Shown here piece by piece: positions 241 to 5,772 of a stretch of DNA of 64,000 nucleotides. A model generated the notes under the pieces. It did not search any database, was not told where the DNA came from, and saw only the letters and a list, made by a program, of their open reading frames with translations. Position 1 is the stretch's first letter; each line of letters opens with the position of its first letter. The position numbers were made by a program, and so were the translations under genes. The stretch is from the NCBI GenBank assembly GCA_003330885.1, contig CP030277.1, forward strand, positions 186,001 to 250,000, read 5' to 3'. This stretch comes from Rhodobiaceae bacterium (lineage in GTDB: Bacteria; Pseudomonadota; Alphaproteobacteria; Parvibaculales; Parvibaculaceae).

Positions 241-915
241 TCAGGAAAACTGCCAAACAGATGTGTTCCGCACGTCTGTATCTTCCAGCTCCCGCGATGT
301 TTTCACCGCGTAGGAAATGACTTTCCGAAGTCGATCCTTGGGAAGATAGGTGCGGCCCGGATCTCCGATGAACACGTCAATCCCCTTGCGCGCTTGTTCC
401 TGCAGCCATGTTTCCACCTCACCGGCAAGCGGTTGTTCGTAGCACATGTCGCCCACAAGAATGACATCCCACGGACCATCTTGACCGACGAGATCTTGCG
501 CGGTTGTTGAGAGCAAAACATTGTTTGCCTGCGCATTGAGCTCTGCCGCGGCGCAGGCAAAGACATCAATATCGGCTGCGAGCACTGACGTGGCGCCAGC
601 GCGCAGGGCGGCGAGGCCGACAAGGCCCGACCCGGACCCAAAGTCGAGCACTCTCTGCTGGGCAATGATGTCCGGATTGTCGAGCAGATAGCGGGCGAGT
701 GCTTGACCACCTGCCCAGGCAAAGGCCCAGAAGGGGGCTGGCAGGCCTGTAGCCGTCAGCTCTTCCTCGCCCATCTGCCAGAGGGCATCGCCCTCGGTTG
801 CCAGATGCAAACGCAGCTCCGGCACGAGAGGAGGCTCGTGCAGTGCTGTGCGAGCCCGGATGAACGCGAATGGGTTTTCCTTGGCAGCAGATAGGTCGTC
901 AGTTTGCAGCTTCAA
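241..915 (-). CDS. Class I SAM methyltransferase, ETF beta-subunit lysine methyltransferase-like
   Basis: The protein carries a clear SAM-binding motif I (VLDFGSGSGLVGLAA), an acidic motif II end (AADIDVFA), and a later VGDMCYE and GDPGR stretch. These, with the N-terminal FIRARTAL...PPLVPELRLHLA region, resemble the METTL20/ETFBKMT group, which methylates lysines on the electron transfer flavoprotein beta subunit; the substrate here is inferred. The frame is open up to an ATG at 987, but that would overlap the upstream desaturase by 89 bases. I therefore place the start at TTG 913-915, which overlaps the desaturase stop and gives 224 aa. It looks co-transcribed with the desaturase and TetR genes. 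A related small-molecule or ribosomal-protein methyltransferase is the alternative. Confidence 0.72.
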   Translation of the reverse strand: MKLQTDDLSAAKENPFAFIRARTALHEPPLVPELRLHLATEGDALWQMGEEELTATGLPAPFWAFAWAGGQALARYLLDNPDIIAQQRVLDFGSGSGLVGLAALRAGATSVLAADIDVFACAAAELNAQANNVLLSTTAQDLVGQDGPWDVILVGDMCYEQPLAGEVETWLQEQARKGIDVFIGDPGRTYLPKDRLRKVISYAVKTSRELEDTDVRNTSVWQFS

Positions 916-1912
916 ACCCTTCCGACGTGATCCCGGCAACCCGGCGGCGCGTGTTGTGAATGACTTCGCCTGGCTTGTCTTGATCATCAGGCTTGGAGGT
1001 CGCCATTTTGATCACTTCCCAGTATCCGTTCTTGGTTTCCATCCTGTGCCAATGCCCATTTTCTTTGAGGAACTCCTGCGCTTTGGGAAGGTTGTAGCAG
1101 GGGATCCACATCATGAGATGATGTTCAACATGGTAGTTGACCCAATAGGGCCCAAAGAAAGCGCGTTCCCAAAGGCTGAGCACCGTTGTGCGGGACGAGC
1201 GAAAGACATCGTCGCTGTCTGGTACCATGGCATGTTCTGCGATGTTTCGAATGCGGGTGATCACTTGATGCCAGGTCAGGAATGGGAGCAGCCACAGAAC
1301 AAAATAGAGGTACCAATGGCCTGTCGCAGCAAGCCCGGCAAACAGAATGAGGTGGGTAACGGTCGCGCGGCCGAGTTTTGACCAATAGCGTTTTAGGCGC
1401 GCACCAAGCGGCATATCGGCTGGACCAAATGCACTCAAGATTTGAGCCTTGCGCTGCTGGTAGCCCGTCTGGCCGGTAATATCCCGCCACATTTTCCGCC
1501 GGAAACTCTTCTTCGTGATGGGGAAGGGAGCAGAAAGGATCAGATCCGGGTCTTCCGCCTGCTGCGTATTGTTGTGGTGCTGCAGATGATAGCGCCGATA
1601 GGACCAGGTCTCCGCCATCAATGGATAGGCGCCGAGCCACTGACCGATGAACTCGTTGAGCTTTGGCGACTTGGCCAACACGCCATGCGCAGCGTCATGC
1701 ATGAGAATGGCCAGGCCCAGTTGCCGACTGCCGATAACCACGAACGCCAATATAAAGGTGAGCGGATTGGGGAAATAGACGAACAGGGCCATCGCGGCGA
1801 AGCAGGTTCCCCAGGCGTGAGCAGCAATCCATATGGCGCGGAGATCAGAGCGTTTGCGCACAATCGCAATCTGGTCGTCGGTAAGAATGTCTTGTGCTTT
1901 GACCTTGTTCAT
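899..1912 (-). CDS. Membrane fatty acid desaturase
   Basis: This 337-aa protein has the three histidine boxes of membrane di-iron desaturases: HDAAHG, HLQHHNN and, near the C terminus, YHVEHH. Hydrophobic segments lie between them, as expected for an inner-membrane enzyme inserting a double bond into an acyl chain. Substrate and position cannot be read from the sequence; a beta-carotene hydroxylase or another fatty-acid hydroxylase-type enzyme of the same fold is the main alternative. Its ATG overlaps the stop of the upstream TetR gene by four bases (ATGA), so the two are translationally coupled. That coupling, and repeated palindromes upstream, suggest a regulated pair like DesT-DesB of Pseudomonas. 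Confidence 0.88.
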   Translation of the reverse strand: MNKVKAQDILTDDQIAIVRKRSDLRAIWIAAHAWGTCFAAMALFVYFPNPLTFILAFVVIGSRQLGLAILMHDAAHGVLAKSPKLNEFIGQWLGAYPLMAETWSYRRYHLQHHNNTQQAEDPDLILSAPFPITKKSFRRKMWRDITGQTGYQQRKAQILSAFGPADMPLGARLKRYWSKLGRATVTHLILFAGLAATGHWYLYFVLWLLPFLTWHQVITRIRNIAEHAMVPDSDDVFRSSRTTVLSLWERAFFGPYWVNYHVEHHLMMWIPCYNLPKAQEFLKENGHWHRMETKNGYWEVIKMATSKPDDQDKPGEVIHNTRRRVAGITSEGFEAAN

Positions 1913-2556
1913 ATCCGGCTCTCCAGTTTTGTTTTTGTCGCCGTCTGTCGGGCGGTCACACCCAGAGCGCCAAAACAGAATTGAACGATGCTGTTGAGGA
2001 CATCATCGCTTCCCTGTGCATCGGTCTCTGGCGCAAGCGGGCCCACCAGAGCTGTCGGGATGGCCCCGGCAATGCAGGCGGCGACAAGCTTGCTATCGCG
2101 CGGGCTCACACTTCCCTCAGCAATCGCATCATCAATAATGCGCGCAAAAATTGCCGCGTGGGTTTTGCGGAACCGTGTGCGTTCTTCGGCAAGGGCCACA
2201 TCAACAGGTTCTGCCAGCAGGGCGTAGGCGAGACGGCGGCTTTTGAGCGCACGTCCCGAAAAGGTTCGCAGGACCAGATCAAAGCGATCAAGGGCCGGAT
2301 GGTCTGCCGCGGCAATACCCGCAAGGATATTCATTTCCCGCGAAGAGACTTCCCGGAACACCTGACGACAGAGATCGTCTTTAGACGGGAAATAGCGATA
2401 AAGCGTGCCCGTCGCGAGACCTGCCCGTTTAGCAACGGCCGTGATCTGCGCTTTTGCGAACCCGCCTTCTGCGACAAGCTCGCGCGCGGCTTTCAGAATT
2501 CGGCGCCTGTTTTCCTTGAGGCGCTGCGCCACGTTCTCTGTTTGCCGATAGGCCAT
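1909..2556 (-). CDS. TetR-family regulator of the desaturase operon
   Basis: The N-terminal helix-turn-helix is typical of TetR (residues about 15-60: ILKAARELVAEGG...ITAVAKRAG...TGTLYRYFPSKDDL), followed by a variable ligand-binding domain. I chose ATG 2554-2556 (215 aa), which leaves about 15 residues before the HTH; a GTG start at 2592 would add 12 residues. Neither has a strong ribosome site. The gene overlaps the desaturase start, so it most likely controls that operon and itself. Four TGAAC-N4-GTTCA palindromes upstream are its probable operators. The ligand may be an acyl-CoA or fatty acid, by analogy only. Confidence 0.88.
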   Translation of the reverse strand: MAYRQTENVAQRLKENRRRILKAARELVAEGGFAKAQITAVAKRAGLATGTLYRYFPSKDDLCRQVFREVSSREMNILAGIAAADHPALDRFDLVLRTFSGRALKSRRLAYALLAEPVDVALAEERTRFRKTHAAIFARIIDDAIAEGSVSPRDSKLVAACIAGAIPTALVGPLAPETDAQGSDDVLNSIVQFCFGALGVTARQTATKTKLESRI

Positions 2557-2603
2557 AGATATGAAATCCAATTCAGTTAATGGCGGTTGCACCGTTCCAT
2601 GAA

Positions 2604-2617
2604 TGAAAGCAGGTTCA
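2604..2617. promoter_or_regulatory. TetR operator copy 1 (TGAAC-N4-GTTCA type)
   Basis: TGAAAGCAGGTTCA matches the palindrome TGAAC-N4-GTTCA with one mismatch. It is the copy nearest the TetR start, about 48 bases upstream, a good place for autorepression. Confidence 0.6.
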
Positions 2618-2650
2618 CTTTATGAAATCAAGCAGGCGAGCCTAAAAAAA

Positions 2651-2664
2651 TGAACTTAGGTTCA
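2651..2664. promoter_or_regulatory. TetR operator copy 2 (perfect)
   Basis: TGAACTTAGGTTCA has perfect 5-bp arms around four bases. Its centre lies 47 bp from copy 1 and 49 bp from copy 3, so the three are nearly evenly spaced. Confidence 0.65.
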
Positions 2665-2699
2665 TGTTTTGAGCCAAACAAAACCCCAGGCCATAGAAA

Positions 2700-2713
2700 T
2701 GAACTGGGGTTCG
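2700..2713. promoter_or_regulatory. TetR operator copy 3
   Basis: TGAACTGGGGTTCG matches the palindrome with a single mismatch at the last base. It sits just past the 3' end of the possible 38-aa ORF. Confidence 0.55.
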
Positions 2714-2751
2714 ATCTTTAGGTTTTTGGCAGAATAGTGCCGAAAATGAGC

Positions 2752-2868
2752 TTACCTGTTTTGTGCTAAAGCGCGTCTTGCAGAGCGGGCTCCTTCGTCA
2801 CGCCAGTAGGGCATGCCGGAAAAGAGGCTCGCTGCAACTGCGGCACCATGGAACCATTGCTTGAACAT
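2752..2868 (-). CDS. Possible 38-aa small protein
   Basis: A short frame starts at ATG 2866-2868 and ends at TAA 2752-2754. An AAGGAG ribosome site lies seven bases upstream of the ATG, better than at most genes in this window. The product starts MFKQWFHGAAVAASLFSG and ends in an arginine-rich tail; the first 18 residues could form a short amphipathic or membrane-touching helix. I do not recognise it. A TTGAAC-N17-TATATA promoter lies upstream, and one of the four TetR palindromes covers the start codon. It could instead be an untranslated leader of the TetR-desaturase transcript. Confidence 0.42.
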   Translation of the reverse strand: MFKQWFHGAAVAASLFSGMPYWRDEGARSARRALAQNR

Positions 2869-2875
2869 AGGTTCA
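2862..2875. promoter_or_regulatory. TetR operator copy 4 (perfect), over the small-ORF start
   Basis: TGAACATAGGTTCA is a perfect copy of the same palindrome as at 2604, 2651 and 2700. It contains the start codon of the 38-aa ORF and directly follows its AAGGAG site on the minus strand. Confidence 0.62.
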
Positions 2876-2942
2876 CTCCTTGATGATCTAGCTGCACCTG
2901 CGCGTCGGAATTGGCGTGAAACACAGCTATGTTGCTATGCGA

Positions 2943-2971
2943 TATATATGGTGCGGTGCAATATTGTTCAA
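2943..2971 (-). promoter_or_regulatory. Sigma70-like promoter
   Basis: On the minus strand, TTGAAC (2966-2971) and TATATA (2943-2948) are separated by 17 bases. The predicted transcript would start near 2935 and read through the small ORF towards the TetR, desaturase and methyltransferase genes. Confidence 0.5.
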
Positions 2972-3001
2972 GCCCAACACCTGCGACATCTGTGCTCAGG
3001 G

Positions 3002-3448
3002 TTAAGAGGGACCCTGGATCTGGAGACTTAGAAGCGCATCCACCGCCAACCAGCACATGAACGCCAGTGCACTGAGTTGCAGCAGAAACAGGCTGGCACG
3101 CATGCGGATGGCGAGCGCCCCGGTCGATGTAATGTGGACCAGGGATTGCAAAGGCCTGACAACCACGATCACGAGACTTGCAAGTGTGAAAAGTGGAGGG
3201 ATCGGCGCACCGGAGACGGCCAGGACGCCGATCACGGCGCCATACATGGGAAGAAACTCAAGGCAGTTTGCCTGTGCCCGATAGAGCCGCCAATAGGCCT
3301 CCGGTCCATGGCGTTCTCCGGAGGGAAAAGCAGTGACGGCGTAGCCACGTACAGACATCAGCCAGGCCCGGACAAGCTCAACCAGAATGAGCAAAAAGAT
3401 GGTCCATCCAGCAAACAAGGTCAGGTGAAGTAGTGGATTGTCGAGCAT
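3002..3448 (-). CDS. MAPEG-family membrane protein
   Basis: This 148-aa protein has four hydrophobic segments and the MAPEG signature region (RAQANCLEFLP, near residue 60), where Arg, Asn and Glu match the glutathione-binding pattern. MAPEG proteins are membrane glutathione transferases or peroxidases acting on lipophilic electrophiles. The gene follows a soluble GST by 12 bases in what looks like a three-gene operon (SnoaL-like, GST, MAPEG), which fits a detoxification role. The substrate is unknown. Confidence 0.85.
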   Translation of the reverse strand: MLDNPLLHLTLFAGWTIFLLILVELVRAWLMSVRGYAVTAFPSGERHGPEAYWRLYRAQANCLEFLPMYGAVIGVLAVSGAPIPPLFTLASLVIVVVRPLQSLVHITSTGALAIRMRASLFLLQLSALAFMCWLAVDALLSLQIQGPS

Positions 3449-3460
3449 GACAGATCTTCC

Positions 3461-4135
3461 TCAAGGGTGGGAGCCGGTGAATGTCGGCATGAGTTCCGAA
3501 ACACGGACCTGCATCTCATTGAACACCGACTGTAAAGATGGACGCTGTTGCATGCGCGTTAACAAGGGAACTAATTCGTTGCAGGCCACTGGCAATCCAC
3601 CGGCCAGAAATGCGTAGCCATTCAACAAAGTGGCTGCAGCCAGGTCTCCAAGAGACGGGTGGTGCGCATCCAGATGATAGTGTCCTAGTGCCTTTGCCTG
3701 TTTGGTGCGGCGTGCGAATACCTCAAGTCCACGCTCTACCCTGGGGGCATCTGCCGGAGATGAGCTGGAACCATAGACGCGGGTCTGAACGAGATTTTCG
3801 ATTAAGGGAAACAGGTACCGGTTTGCGTCGAAAAACAATGACCGGCTTTTTGCACGCTGGGCAGCGTGCTGCCTATCGTTGGAGGTCGGATCGTATCGAT
3901 CTTCCAGATAAGTGCAGATGAGGAATGAATCGTAGAACGCGCCATCATCATCAACCCAAACAGGGTTTCGCTGGTCTGGATGGTACTTGGCAATCATGGG
4001 ATGCACCGGGCGATATCCCTCAACAGGTGACCAAGGAACCTCGACGAAGTTGAATGGGAGAGATTTCTCAGCAAGCACGACGCGAACGACTGACGTAGGC
4101 AGCGTAAGCGGTCCACCGTAGAGCGTCCCAATCAT
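3461..4135 (-). CDS. Glutathione S-transferase family protein
   Basis: The 224-aa protein starts with a thioredoxin-like GST N-domain (LYGGPLTLPTSVVRVVLAEK, then NPVWVDDDGAFYDSFLICTYLEDRY with the usual Asp-Ser glutathione contact). A helical C-domain follows. A Ser/Thr near residue 12 is the likely catalytic side chain. Its ATG overlaps the stop of the upstream SnoaL-like gene (ATGA), so the two are coupled. With the MAPEG gene behind it, the operon points to glutathione-dependent handling of a lipophilic compound. Confidence 0.86.
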   Translation of the reverse strand: MIGTLYGGPLTLPTSVVRVVLAEKSLPFNFVEVPWSPVEGYRPVHPMIAKYHPDQRNPVWVDDDGAFYDSFLICTYLEDRYDPTSNDRQHAAQRAKSRSLFFDANRYLFPLIENLVQTRVYGSSSSPADAPRVERGLEVFARRTKQAKALGHYHLDAHHPSLGDLAAATLLNGYAFLAGGLPVACNELVPLLTRMQQRPSLQSVFNEMQVRVSELMPTFTGSHP

Positions 4136-5079
4136 GTGTCGGCCAACATGCGTTTGTGATGGGCAGCTGCGAGAGCCAGCATTACTTGATTGTGGTCGTC
4201 CATCAGAACGGTCAGGTGACCAATATCCAGGAAGAAGCGCTCCCCAGAAATGTAGGGGCCGTCGAATTCAAAGGTGGAATAGAAGGGCAGATGGATCTTG
4301 TTGCCTGAGGCTTTGATCCCCAGAAAGTCGCCCGCATGTGTCATGTGGACGTCGCCCCAACAAGCAGAGCCGTCCGCTGTGATATGGTCAAGGGAGACAT
4401 TGTAATCTGGAAATGCGGAAAAGAAGCCCTGTAGCATCTCGCGGCTTTCTTGCTTATTGGTCGACCGCCCAGGAATAGAGACTGCTTCCAAAGAAAAATT
4501 CTCACTACAGACCATTAGCGCTGCCTCAATATCCTGACGGCTTTTCGCTGCGCCATAGACGCGCACAAAACTTCGGCGCACAGCCCAGTCAAGAGCAAGC
4601 TTGTCGCCTGGGTTGGCTGGCGATTCATAGGGGCTCGCGAAGGGTTTGAGGGCCGCATCATACTTTTCGAGATAGTCGGCAGCGCGCTGGCCATGCCCAG
4701 GTGCAAGACGCTCTGCGAGTTTCACGAACCTGCCGTCTTCGAGGACCTGGAGATGTTCCCCTTCCACACTCAAATCGGGCAGCCCGGCGCGCCGAAAACT
4801 GAGACGGAACCGCATCCAAATACCTTCGTCCCTCACTTCAGGACCCTCAATGATTTCAGGGATGCGTATGTCGAAGCGGCGGTCGACGGTGTTGACGGAC
4901 AATTGCAGCCCATCAAGCACCTCTTGAACGCCTGTTCTGAGCGGAGCACCGAATGGGCCTCCATCGATGAGCTCATGGACGGCATCATCCGAATAAAAGG
5001 GGGACAACACGGAAAAGTCGTCAGAAAGGAAAGCGATTTCAAAGGCTTGTGCGCATTGAATGAAAGTCGACACGGTCAT
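4132..5079 (-). CDS. Two-domain SnoaL-like (NTF2 fold) protein
   Basis: Two NTF2-like halves are visible in this 315-aa protein: residues about 5-145 (QAFEIAFLSDDFSVLSPFYSDDAV) and about 165-300, the second resembling SnoaL ester cyclases (GFFSAFPDYNVSLDHITADG). I start at ATG 5077-5079 because GGAG lies ten bases upstream; the open frame runs on to 5130, but that would cross the intergenic operator. It is first in an operon with GST and MAPEG genes and divergent from a TetR gene. A cyclase, isomerase or hydrolase role is possible; the fold alone does not decide it. Confidence 0.72.
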   Translation of the reverse strand: MTVSTFIQCAQAFEIAFLSDDFSVLSPFYSDDAVHELIDGGPFGAPLRTGVQEVLDGLQLSVNTVDRRFDIRIPEIIEGPEVRDEGIWMRFRLSFRRAGLPDLSVEGEHLQVLEDGRFVKLAERLAPGHGQRAADYLEKYDAALKPFASPYESPANPGDKLALDWAVRRSFVRVYGAAKSRQDIEAALMVCSENFSLEAVSIPGRSTNKQESREMLQGFFSAFPDYNVSLDHITADGSACWGDVHMTHAGDFLGIKASGNKIHLPFYSTFEFDGPYISGERFFLDIGHLTVLMDDHNQVMLALAAAHHKRMLADT

Positions 5080-5109
5080 TTTGACGTTTCTCCGAACCAG
5101 CAATTGTGA

Positions 5110-5142
5110 CATACATGATGTATTTGACATTCAGTATGTATG
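5110..5142. promoter_or_regulatory. Probable TetR operator between divergent genes
   Basis: The segment holds ATACAT-G-ATGTAT at 5111-5123 and a matching half-site ATGTATG at 5136-5142, which also pairs with CATACAT at 5110-5116. It lies between the SnoaL-GST-MAPEG operon and the divergent TetR gene at 5155, where that regulator could control both. Confidence 0.6.
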
Positions 5143-5154
5143 TGAAGGTGTCCA

Positions 5155-5772
5155 GTGATCCAGTCCAATCAGAATGAAACGACCAAGACCATTCGCGATG
5201 AATATGCAGAGCGCACACGCACGGAAATTCTGAAAAGCGCCCGCAGCATTTTCACCAAGACCGGCTTTGCGGCTTCATCCCTTCAGCAGATCGCAAAGAG
5301 CGCTGGTGTGACGCGGGGCGCGCTTTACCACCACTTCAAAAACAAGGAAGACATTTTTCTGGCCGTCTTCCGGATACTCCAGGCTGAGATGATTGAGAAG
5401 CTGGGGCGCACAGTTTCGACGGAAATTGATGATGGTTGGATAGGCGTATCAGCGGTCTTGTCCTCGTTCTTGGAATACAGCCAGAATGTGGAATATCAGC
5501 AGATTGTTCTGATTGAAGGCCCTGGCGCACTAGGTTGGGCCCAATGGCGCAAGGTCGAAGAAGAATATGCGCTGGGTTTCATCGGTGACCTGATCGATCA
5601 CCTGACAGTAAAGGGCGAAATCATCACGGCAAATCGAGACGCGCTTGCCAGCATGGTTATGGGCCTGACAATTGAAAGTTCTTTAGCGCTTGCGATGAAC
5701 GACGGCGCCTACACGGCGGCCGATATTCAACAGATAGCAGAGCGCATGGTTTTTGGCCTGAAAGCAGACTAG
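5155..5772 (+). CDS. TetR/AcrR-family regulator
   Basis: This 205-aa protein starts at GTG 5155 with GAAGG six bases upstream. The HTH spans about residues 20-65 (EILKSARSIFTKTGF...SLQQIAKSAGVTRGALYHHF). The C-domain contains GALGWAQWRKVEEEYALGF, closely matched by the TetR protein at 12258 (IALGWEGWRKLDQKYFLGQ), so the two are paralogues. It is divergent from the SnoaL-GST-MAPEG operon and probably represses it in the absence of a hydrophobic inducer. Confidence 0.88.
   Translation: MIQSNQNETTKTIRDEYAERTRTEILKSARSIFTKTGFAASSLQQIAKSAGVTRGALYHHFKNKEDIFLAVFRILQAEMIEKLGRTVSTEIDDGWIGVSAVLSSFLEYSQNVEYQQIVLIEGPGALGWAQWRKVEEEYALGFIGDLIDHLTVKGEIITANRDALASMVMGLTIESSLALAMNDGAYTAADIQQIAERMVFGLKAD

Follow-up and report, generated by a model that had tools for sequence, protein, structure and literature searches.

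Putative operators of a TetR-family regulator upstream of a tetR-desaturase operon in one family of Alphaproteobacteria

The palindromes upstream of the tetR gene are most probably operators of the adjacent TetR regulator, which would thereby repress its own tetR-desaturase operon; from comparative sequence analysis we give this reading a probability of about 0.8. The window, the whole stretch of 64,000 nt analysed here, is a portion of a 3.86-Mb genome on a single contig. The evidence comes from the placement of the sites relative to the genes, from their recurrence upstream of tetR across the family, and from the near-restriction of the exact consensus to this locus. A conserved small ORF upstream of tetR is the less expected part of the locus.

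The palindromic sites and the operon

The features of the locus are as follows.

899..1912, minus strand: membrane fatty acid desaturase-like gene, 337 aa
1909..2556, minus strand: tetR, a TetR/AcrR-family regulator of 215 aa, with its ATG at 2556
2562..2575, minus strand: O2, the start-codon-proximal site TGAATTGGATTTCA, weak, with 2 mismatches; rank 5 of the 14-mers of the window with both matrices
2604..2617, minus strand: O1, the promoter site TGAACCTGCTTTCA, 14 bp past the first base of the TTGATT box
2626..2631, minus strand: -35-like hexamer TTGATT of the tetR promoter; other genera mostly have TTGAC
2651..2664, minus strand: third site TGAACCTAAGTTCA, perfect, upstream of the -35 box; rank 1 with both matrices
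2676..2711, minus strand: hairpin with a T-rich tail (AACCCCAG ... CTGGGGTT), probably the intrinsic terminator of the small gene
2700..2713, minus strand: operator-like site CGAACCCCAGTTCA; rank 3 with the cleaned matrix and rank 4 with the uncleaned matrix
2752..2868, minus strand: unannotated small ORF of 38 aa, MFKQWFHGAAVAASLFSGMPYWRDEGARSARRALAQNR
2862..2875, minus strand: perfect operator-like site TGAACCTATGTTCA that covers the small ORF's start codon; rank 2 with both matrices
2930-2941, minus strand: weaker PhaR-type site CGCATAGCAACA
2949-2960, minus strand: PhaR-type site TGCACCGCACCA, upstream of the small ORF; the two PhaR-type sites flank an AT-rich stretch

The tetR stop codon and the desaturase start codon overlap as ATGA, both genes lie on the minus strand, and the palindromes stand upstream of this operon, which confirms the earlier observation that a tetR gene and a membrane desaturase gene adjoin them. 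Among the distinct family loci, 34 are long enough to show what follows tetR, and in all 34 the next gene is the desaturase; they comprise all 30 loci L019-L048 together with L227, L228, L229 and L231; L230 is a locus fragment and stands outside this count. A generic promoter scan of 2540-3010 flagged no sigma-70 promoter, and the tetR promoter is for that reason deduced from conservation. No RNA family matches 2400-3100 at the gathering threshold. Elsewhere in the window, an ACATAC...GTATGT inverted repeat was read by eye at 5106-5148, between a SnoaL-domain gene (4132-5130, minus strand) and a second, divergent TetR gene (5155-5772, plus strand), and it looks like a putative operator of that second TetR.

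All four copies of the 14-bp palindrome described in the sequence-only reading were verified, with 2651 and 2862 perfect and 2604 and 2700 carrying one mismatch each. The O2 site was absent from that reading, though it stands at a place conserved in the family. Over the whole window, the palindrome with at most one mismatch has 6 matches against 1.96 expected, and 4 of 100 shuffled sequences reach 6. The window-wide excess is only mild, and the significance lies in the clustering: if the window rate is taken, at least four sites fall within 320 bp with a probability of about 4e-10; the genome rate, multiplied by the number of 320-bp windows in the genome, gives about 3e-6.

Every 14-mer of the window was also scored with matrices built from O1- and O2-like sites in tetR-orthologue promoters of other genera. 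The uncleaned matrix comprises all best O1 and O2 picks of L025-L048, including poor picks from L025 and L027. The training picks were selected by their likeness to TGAACN4GTTCA, so the general form of the sites was preset, while their place and their rank in the window were not. With the cleaned matrix, the five highest scores in the 64-kb window fall at 2651, 2862, 2700, 2604 and 2562, and the uncleaned matrix puts the same five 14-mers on top in a different order. O1 and O2 are the lowest-scoring of the five (11.97 and 10.58 with the cleaned matrix), and O2 leads the 14-mers at 3058 (10.25) and 4925 (10.06) by so little that the case for it rests on its conserved place.

The sites at 2700 and 2862 overlap other elements, and it may be that only O1, O2 and the site at 2651 are operators. 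Under this alternative, which we judge a serious one at somewhat less than even odds, 2700 would derive from a GC-rich terminator arm, and 2862 from the start codon and Phe-Lys codons behind a Shine-Dalgarno sequence. The RNA fold of 2670-2751 has a z-score of -3.58, with none of 200 shuffled sequences equally stable, and site 2700 lies within the 5' arm and loop of this terminator-like hairpin. A simple terminator scan of 2540-3010 did not flag the hairpin at 2676..2711, probably because of its loop limit of 8. Similar hairpins are read by eye at other loci, and several loci of genus g5, such as L035, L036, L040 and L047, have the hairpin without the operator. The right half of 2862 doubles as the coding sequence ATGTTCA, and its palindrome may therefore partly be a by-product; the small ORF of L028 also starts with ATGTTCA, and no operator is present there. 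Sites like 2862 occur in L020 (one mismatch), L021 and L022, with the left half shortened in L024. Against a by-product origin stand the high scores of both sites (rank 2 for 2862, rank 3 or 4 for 2700) and the recurrence of an operator-like terminator arm in 11 loci of genera g1, g3 and g5 (L019-L022 and L024-L030).

Looped or cooperative repression, in which three serial operators and a distant one would act together in helical phase, is improbable. The five sites do span 314 bp, arrays of more than three sites are also found in L023 and L024, and O1 and O2 of the window lie 42 bp or 4.0 turns apart. However, the spacings of 47 and 49 bp, which the sequence-only reading gave correctly, are not near whole turns as it had supposed, amounting to 4.48 and 4.67 turns of 10.5 bp, and the distant site at 2862 is 162 bp or 15.43 turns from its neighbour. 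Across 25 loci, O1 and O2 lie 23 to 52 bp apart (2.2 to 5.0 turns), and 16 of 28 loci have just two sites at the cleaned-matrix thresholds. Helical phasing was rejected on these non-integral distances and the variable O1-O2 spacing among loci. The sites may still cooperate in some unphased way.

Conservation of the sites and their near-confinement to the tetR locus

We read the tetR loci of 35 of the 40 family genomes, 30 of them as L019-L048 and five as L227-L231. L049-L052 are the same contigs as L020, L022, L023 and L024 and were counted once. The five genomes outside the operator reading are G004 and G029, which are without a close tetR orthologue, G013, in which tetR starts at a contig end, and G061 and G063, which are not among the tetR-orthologue matches. 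At least two sites stand upstream of tetR in all 35 loci, 28 of them by the cleaned-matrix scan and the others (L043, L046 and L227-L231) read in addition; L043 and L046 had been left out of the scan by a mismatch in the start pattern and were read separately. The thresholds were 12.5 for the genus of the window and 10 for other genera in the 28-locus scan, and 9-12 for L043, L046 and L227-L231. From the tetR start to the end of the locus (about 1.75-2.15 kb), 26 of the 28 loci have no site, and L025 and L027 have one each. Sites within tetR itself occur in L043, L228 and L230.

The two positions nearest tetR recur in place as well as in form. Loci of the largest genus usually have O1 at about -43 and O2 at -18; for the window and the three relatives nearest to it, the positions are -60 or -61 for O1 and -19 for O2. 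In 24 of 28 loci, O1 is preceded by a TTGAC or TTGAT box whose first base stands 13-14 bp before the start of O1; no box was found in the other four. A counterpart of O2 stands at about -15 to -21 in most family loci and is absent from L025 and L027. O2 commonly takes the form TGAACGGAGGTTCA or TGAATGGAGGTTCA in the largest genus and thereby contains a Shine-Dalgarno sequence. The site at 2651 has more degenerate counterparts at -107 in L020-L022, which belong to the genus of the window. L043 (genus g2) has an additional site, TGAACAAAGGTTCA, just before the desaturase start codon, 638 bp past the tetR start, with further sites inside tetR at 86 and 223.

The motif seems to follow the TetR beyond the family. 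L226, from another alphaproteobacterial family, has a 40%-identical TetR with the sites TGAACATTGATTCA and TGAATTTATATTCA at -65 and -32. Here tetR is followed directly by an enoyl-CoA hydratase gene (1448-2975 for the pair; PF00378, 155.5 bits), and no desaturase match is found within the 3.8 kb fetched. The presence of the motif at a tetR gene without a desaturase match supports self-regulation, and the neighbouring enoyl-CoA hydratase gene would point to a ligand of the acyl-CoA type. Among further distant relatives, L053 has one site with one mismatch and L054 has none.

A genome scan had been proposed by the sequence-only reading as the way to tell a local operator from a regulon, and its result favours the local operator. 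A search of the 40 family genomes gives 24 forward matches to the exact consensus TGAACCNNGGTTCA and 1 to its reversed control, and 20 of the 24 lie upstream of tetR, 18 as O1 and 2 further upstream. The search is blind to weaker sites, and the genus of the window has no exact copy of TGAACCNNGGTTCA because its sites are more degenerate. In the genome of the window, 5 perfect palindromes occur in 3.86 Mb, 2 of them at the tetR locus, compared with 3 for the reversed control pattern; with at most one mismatch, there are 104 sites against 74 for the control. The other perfect sites of this genome lie in an ORF that reads like an acyl-CoA dehydrogenase gene (L003), between ORFs (L004) and in an ORF (L005). 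Together with the conserved sites in 35 family loci, the scan supports the earlier proposal that the palindromes are a putative local operator of the adjacent TetR.

The remaining 4 of the 24 exact matches lie elsewhere. One (G016:C3) is within a long ORF that, from its translation and with no family search, reads like a cell-wall ligase gene, one (G018:C8) is in a stretch of overlapping ORFs, and a pair (G008:C26 and G012:C4) lies just past a long ORF whose translation reads like tolB. A broad lipid regulon was rejected on the present data, the off-locus exact matches being so few. In L147 and L148 (genus g3), a perfect TGAACCATGGTTCA at 1501-1514 stands past the tolB-like ORF and outside the tetR locus, and it is a possible second target.

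That another regulator binds the palindromes and that their position beside tetR is incidental is very improbable: TetR-family proteins are numerous in this genome, with 40 matches in G000, but the sites keep to the upstream side of tetR at every family locus read, recur at the tetR of L226 with no adjacent desaturase match, and have their exact copies nearly confined to the tetR locus.

The regulator, the desaturase and the proposed control

The TetR protein belongs to the TetR/AcrR family, with 59.6 bits against PF00440 (TetR_N; cut-off 24) in a scan that used a longer version of tetR with a GTG start at 2592. Its predicted model is all-helical (pLDDT 81.3) and aligns with TetR-family structures at Z-scores up to 18.3 over 181 residues at 2.2 A. 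The comparison indicates a generic TetR fold, the Z-scores of the best 50 of 1000 chains running from 18.3 to 15.9 with little difference between them. The desaturase belongs to the membrane desaturases (PF00487, 124.5 bits; cut-off 29.7), and the histidine boxes HDAAH, HLQHH and HVEHH are read in its translation. Its nearest curated model is the GntB arginine hydroxylase, at 130.4 bits and below the cut-off of 380, and it matched no solved structure by sequence; a fatty acid substrate is for these reasons only assumed.

The sequence-only reading had likened the pair to DesT and DesB of Pseudomonas, and this membership is unproven. The TetR scores 21.8 bits against the FabR model (NF008402; cut-off 151) and the desaturase 30.1 bits against the DesB model (cut-off 500), and DesT is named neither among the best 50 of 1000 structure chains nor among the best 60 of 117 sequence matches. 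The gene orders also differ, since desT and desB are described as a divergent pair (PMC4273635), whereas tetR and the desaturase gene overlap here in one co-directional operon. By analogy, DesT is nonetheless the nearest functional counterpart, as a TetR-family regulator beside a desaturase gene. DesT of Pseudomonas aeruginosa is reported to repress desCB, with saturated acyl-CoAs weakening and unsaturated acyl-CoAs strengthening its binding (PMC10634369); repression modulated by acyl-CoA is thus published for DesT and proposed for the TetR studied here. MadR of mycobacteria is likewise described as an acyl-CoA-responsive regulator of desaturase genes, and it differs in its consensus, TCTGTGxxxxxxxGT as printed, and in its targets, the mycolic acid desaturases (PMC8872791).

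By sequence, the best solved-structure matches of the TetR, among the best 60 of 117, are regulators of the KstR/FadR type, with KstR at E = 8e-11 and a 'fatty acid metabolism regulator protein' (3whb) at 2e-10. The scores against curated models lie far below the cut-offs, with ScbR best (59.1 against 150), followed by KstR (56.4 against 280) and FadR (49.4 against 200). Proteins of the KstR/FadR type respond to acyl-CoA-type ligands. Sensing of acyl-CoA by the TetR is plausible, given the enoyl-CoA hydratase gene beside the related tetR of L226. Among the open-licence literature matches listed, we found no publication on the TetR regulator, the operator or the small protein.

For the proposed autoregulation we suggest the following mechanism. 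A TetR dimer would bind 14-mers of the TGAACC-NN-GGTTCA type and repress its own tetR-desaturase operon, and the two positions O1 and O2 would form the conserved core of the control region. Repressor bound at O1, which closely follows the -35 box, would stop RNA polymerase. A second block would come from O2, some 18 bp short of the start codon; in other genera, O2 often includes the Shine-Dalgarno sequence. An acyl-CoA or a related fatty acyl compound, the most likely ligand, would release the repressor, and the desaturase would thus be made as the state of the membrane acyl chains requires. Additional copies in this genus reach further upstream, as far as the small gene's terminator and start codon, so the same TetR may repress the small gene too.

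The upstream small ORF and the PhaR-type sites

The small ORF is, as predicted from its conservation, a family-specific microprotein of 36 to 63 aa that is absent from the Pfam and NCBIfam libraries, where it has only weak single-member matches (best E 0.011 and 0.066). In an alignment of 22 homologues, W, AA and G are invariant, and the C-terminus is AAD or PAD outside the genus of the window. The N-terminal helix, with the pattern W-LH-AA-AA--F-G, is conserved and probably amphipathic. A profile finds the small ORF in 32 of the 40 family genomes (22 aligned and 10 new), with one copy each, and in none of 58 others; the eight family genomes without a profile match are G004, G005, G013, G014, G019, G029, G031 and G063, some of which are incomplete. 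In 31 of the 32 genomes, the small ORF shares its strand with tetR and stands no more than about 0.4 kb upstream of it. In the exception, G061 (L232), the small ORF adjoins a partial desaturase match, and the 2.2 kb fetched contain no match to tetR.

The pN/pS of the small ORF is 0.12 to 0.34 for seven pairs from genera g3 and g5, three of them drawn from the same three loci, which indicates purifying selection in these genera. In the genus of the window, three pairs with 6-7 changes each give values of 0.57 to 1.71, and the C-terminus is shortened, both of which count against the small ORF mattering there.

Upstream of the small ORF, the site listed above matches the consensus TGCRNYGCASMA given for PhaR, the PHB accumulation regulator, in PMC6201568. 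Within the 150 bp that precede the small ORF, 22 of 23 loci carry the core TGCRNYGCA, seven of them twice at a distance of 19-22 bp, and PhaR is encoded in 37 of the 40 family genomes. In the genome of the window, matching sites also lie about 230 bp before the phaR ORF (L219) and between two citrate synthase genes (L180). Ten core sites of this genome besides those at the small ORF were read: four are in inter-ORF gaps (those at phaR and the two citrate synthase genes, L192 and L225), four are inside long ORFs (L221, L223, L224 and L198) and two are in doubtful short ORFs (L220 and L222). The relaxed pattern TGCRNYGCANMA is 2.6 times commoner than its reversed control (65 against 25 forward matches). 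Counts of the bare core inside the window show no excess (6 against 11.1 expected), and the genome has no match to the phasin family PF09361, so the case for PhaR rests on the conserved position of its sites. At six phasin loci of the family, the core is present upstream in three (L202, L205 and L209) and absent in three. The PhaR-type sites suggest a link between the small ORF and PHB storage.

We also consider, as a rather unlikely extension, that the locus joins carbon storage to membrane fluidity. A PhaR-controlled microprotein would be kept beside the TetR-desaturase operon, in this genus the same TetR would repress the microprotein via the start-codon operator, and the microprotein may sit on PHB granules or at the membrane, modulating desaturation or the acyl supply.

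The putative sites described here offer a concrete operator for a TetR group that would control a desaturase-like gene in one family of Alphaproteobacteria. They also bring out a conserved microprotein family at a place where lipid desaturation and PHB storage may meet.
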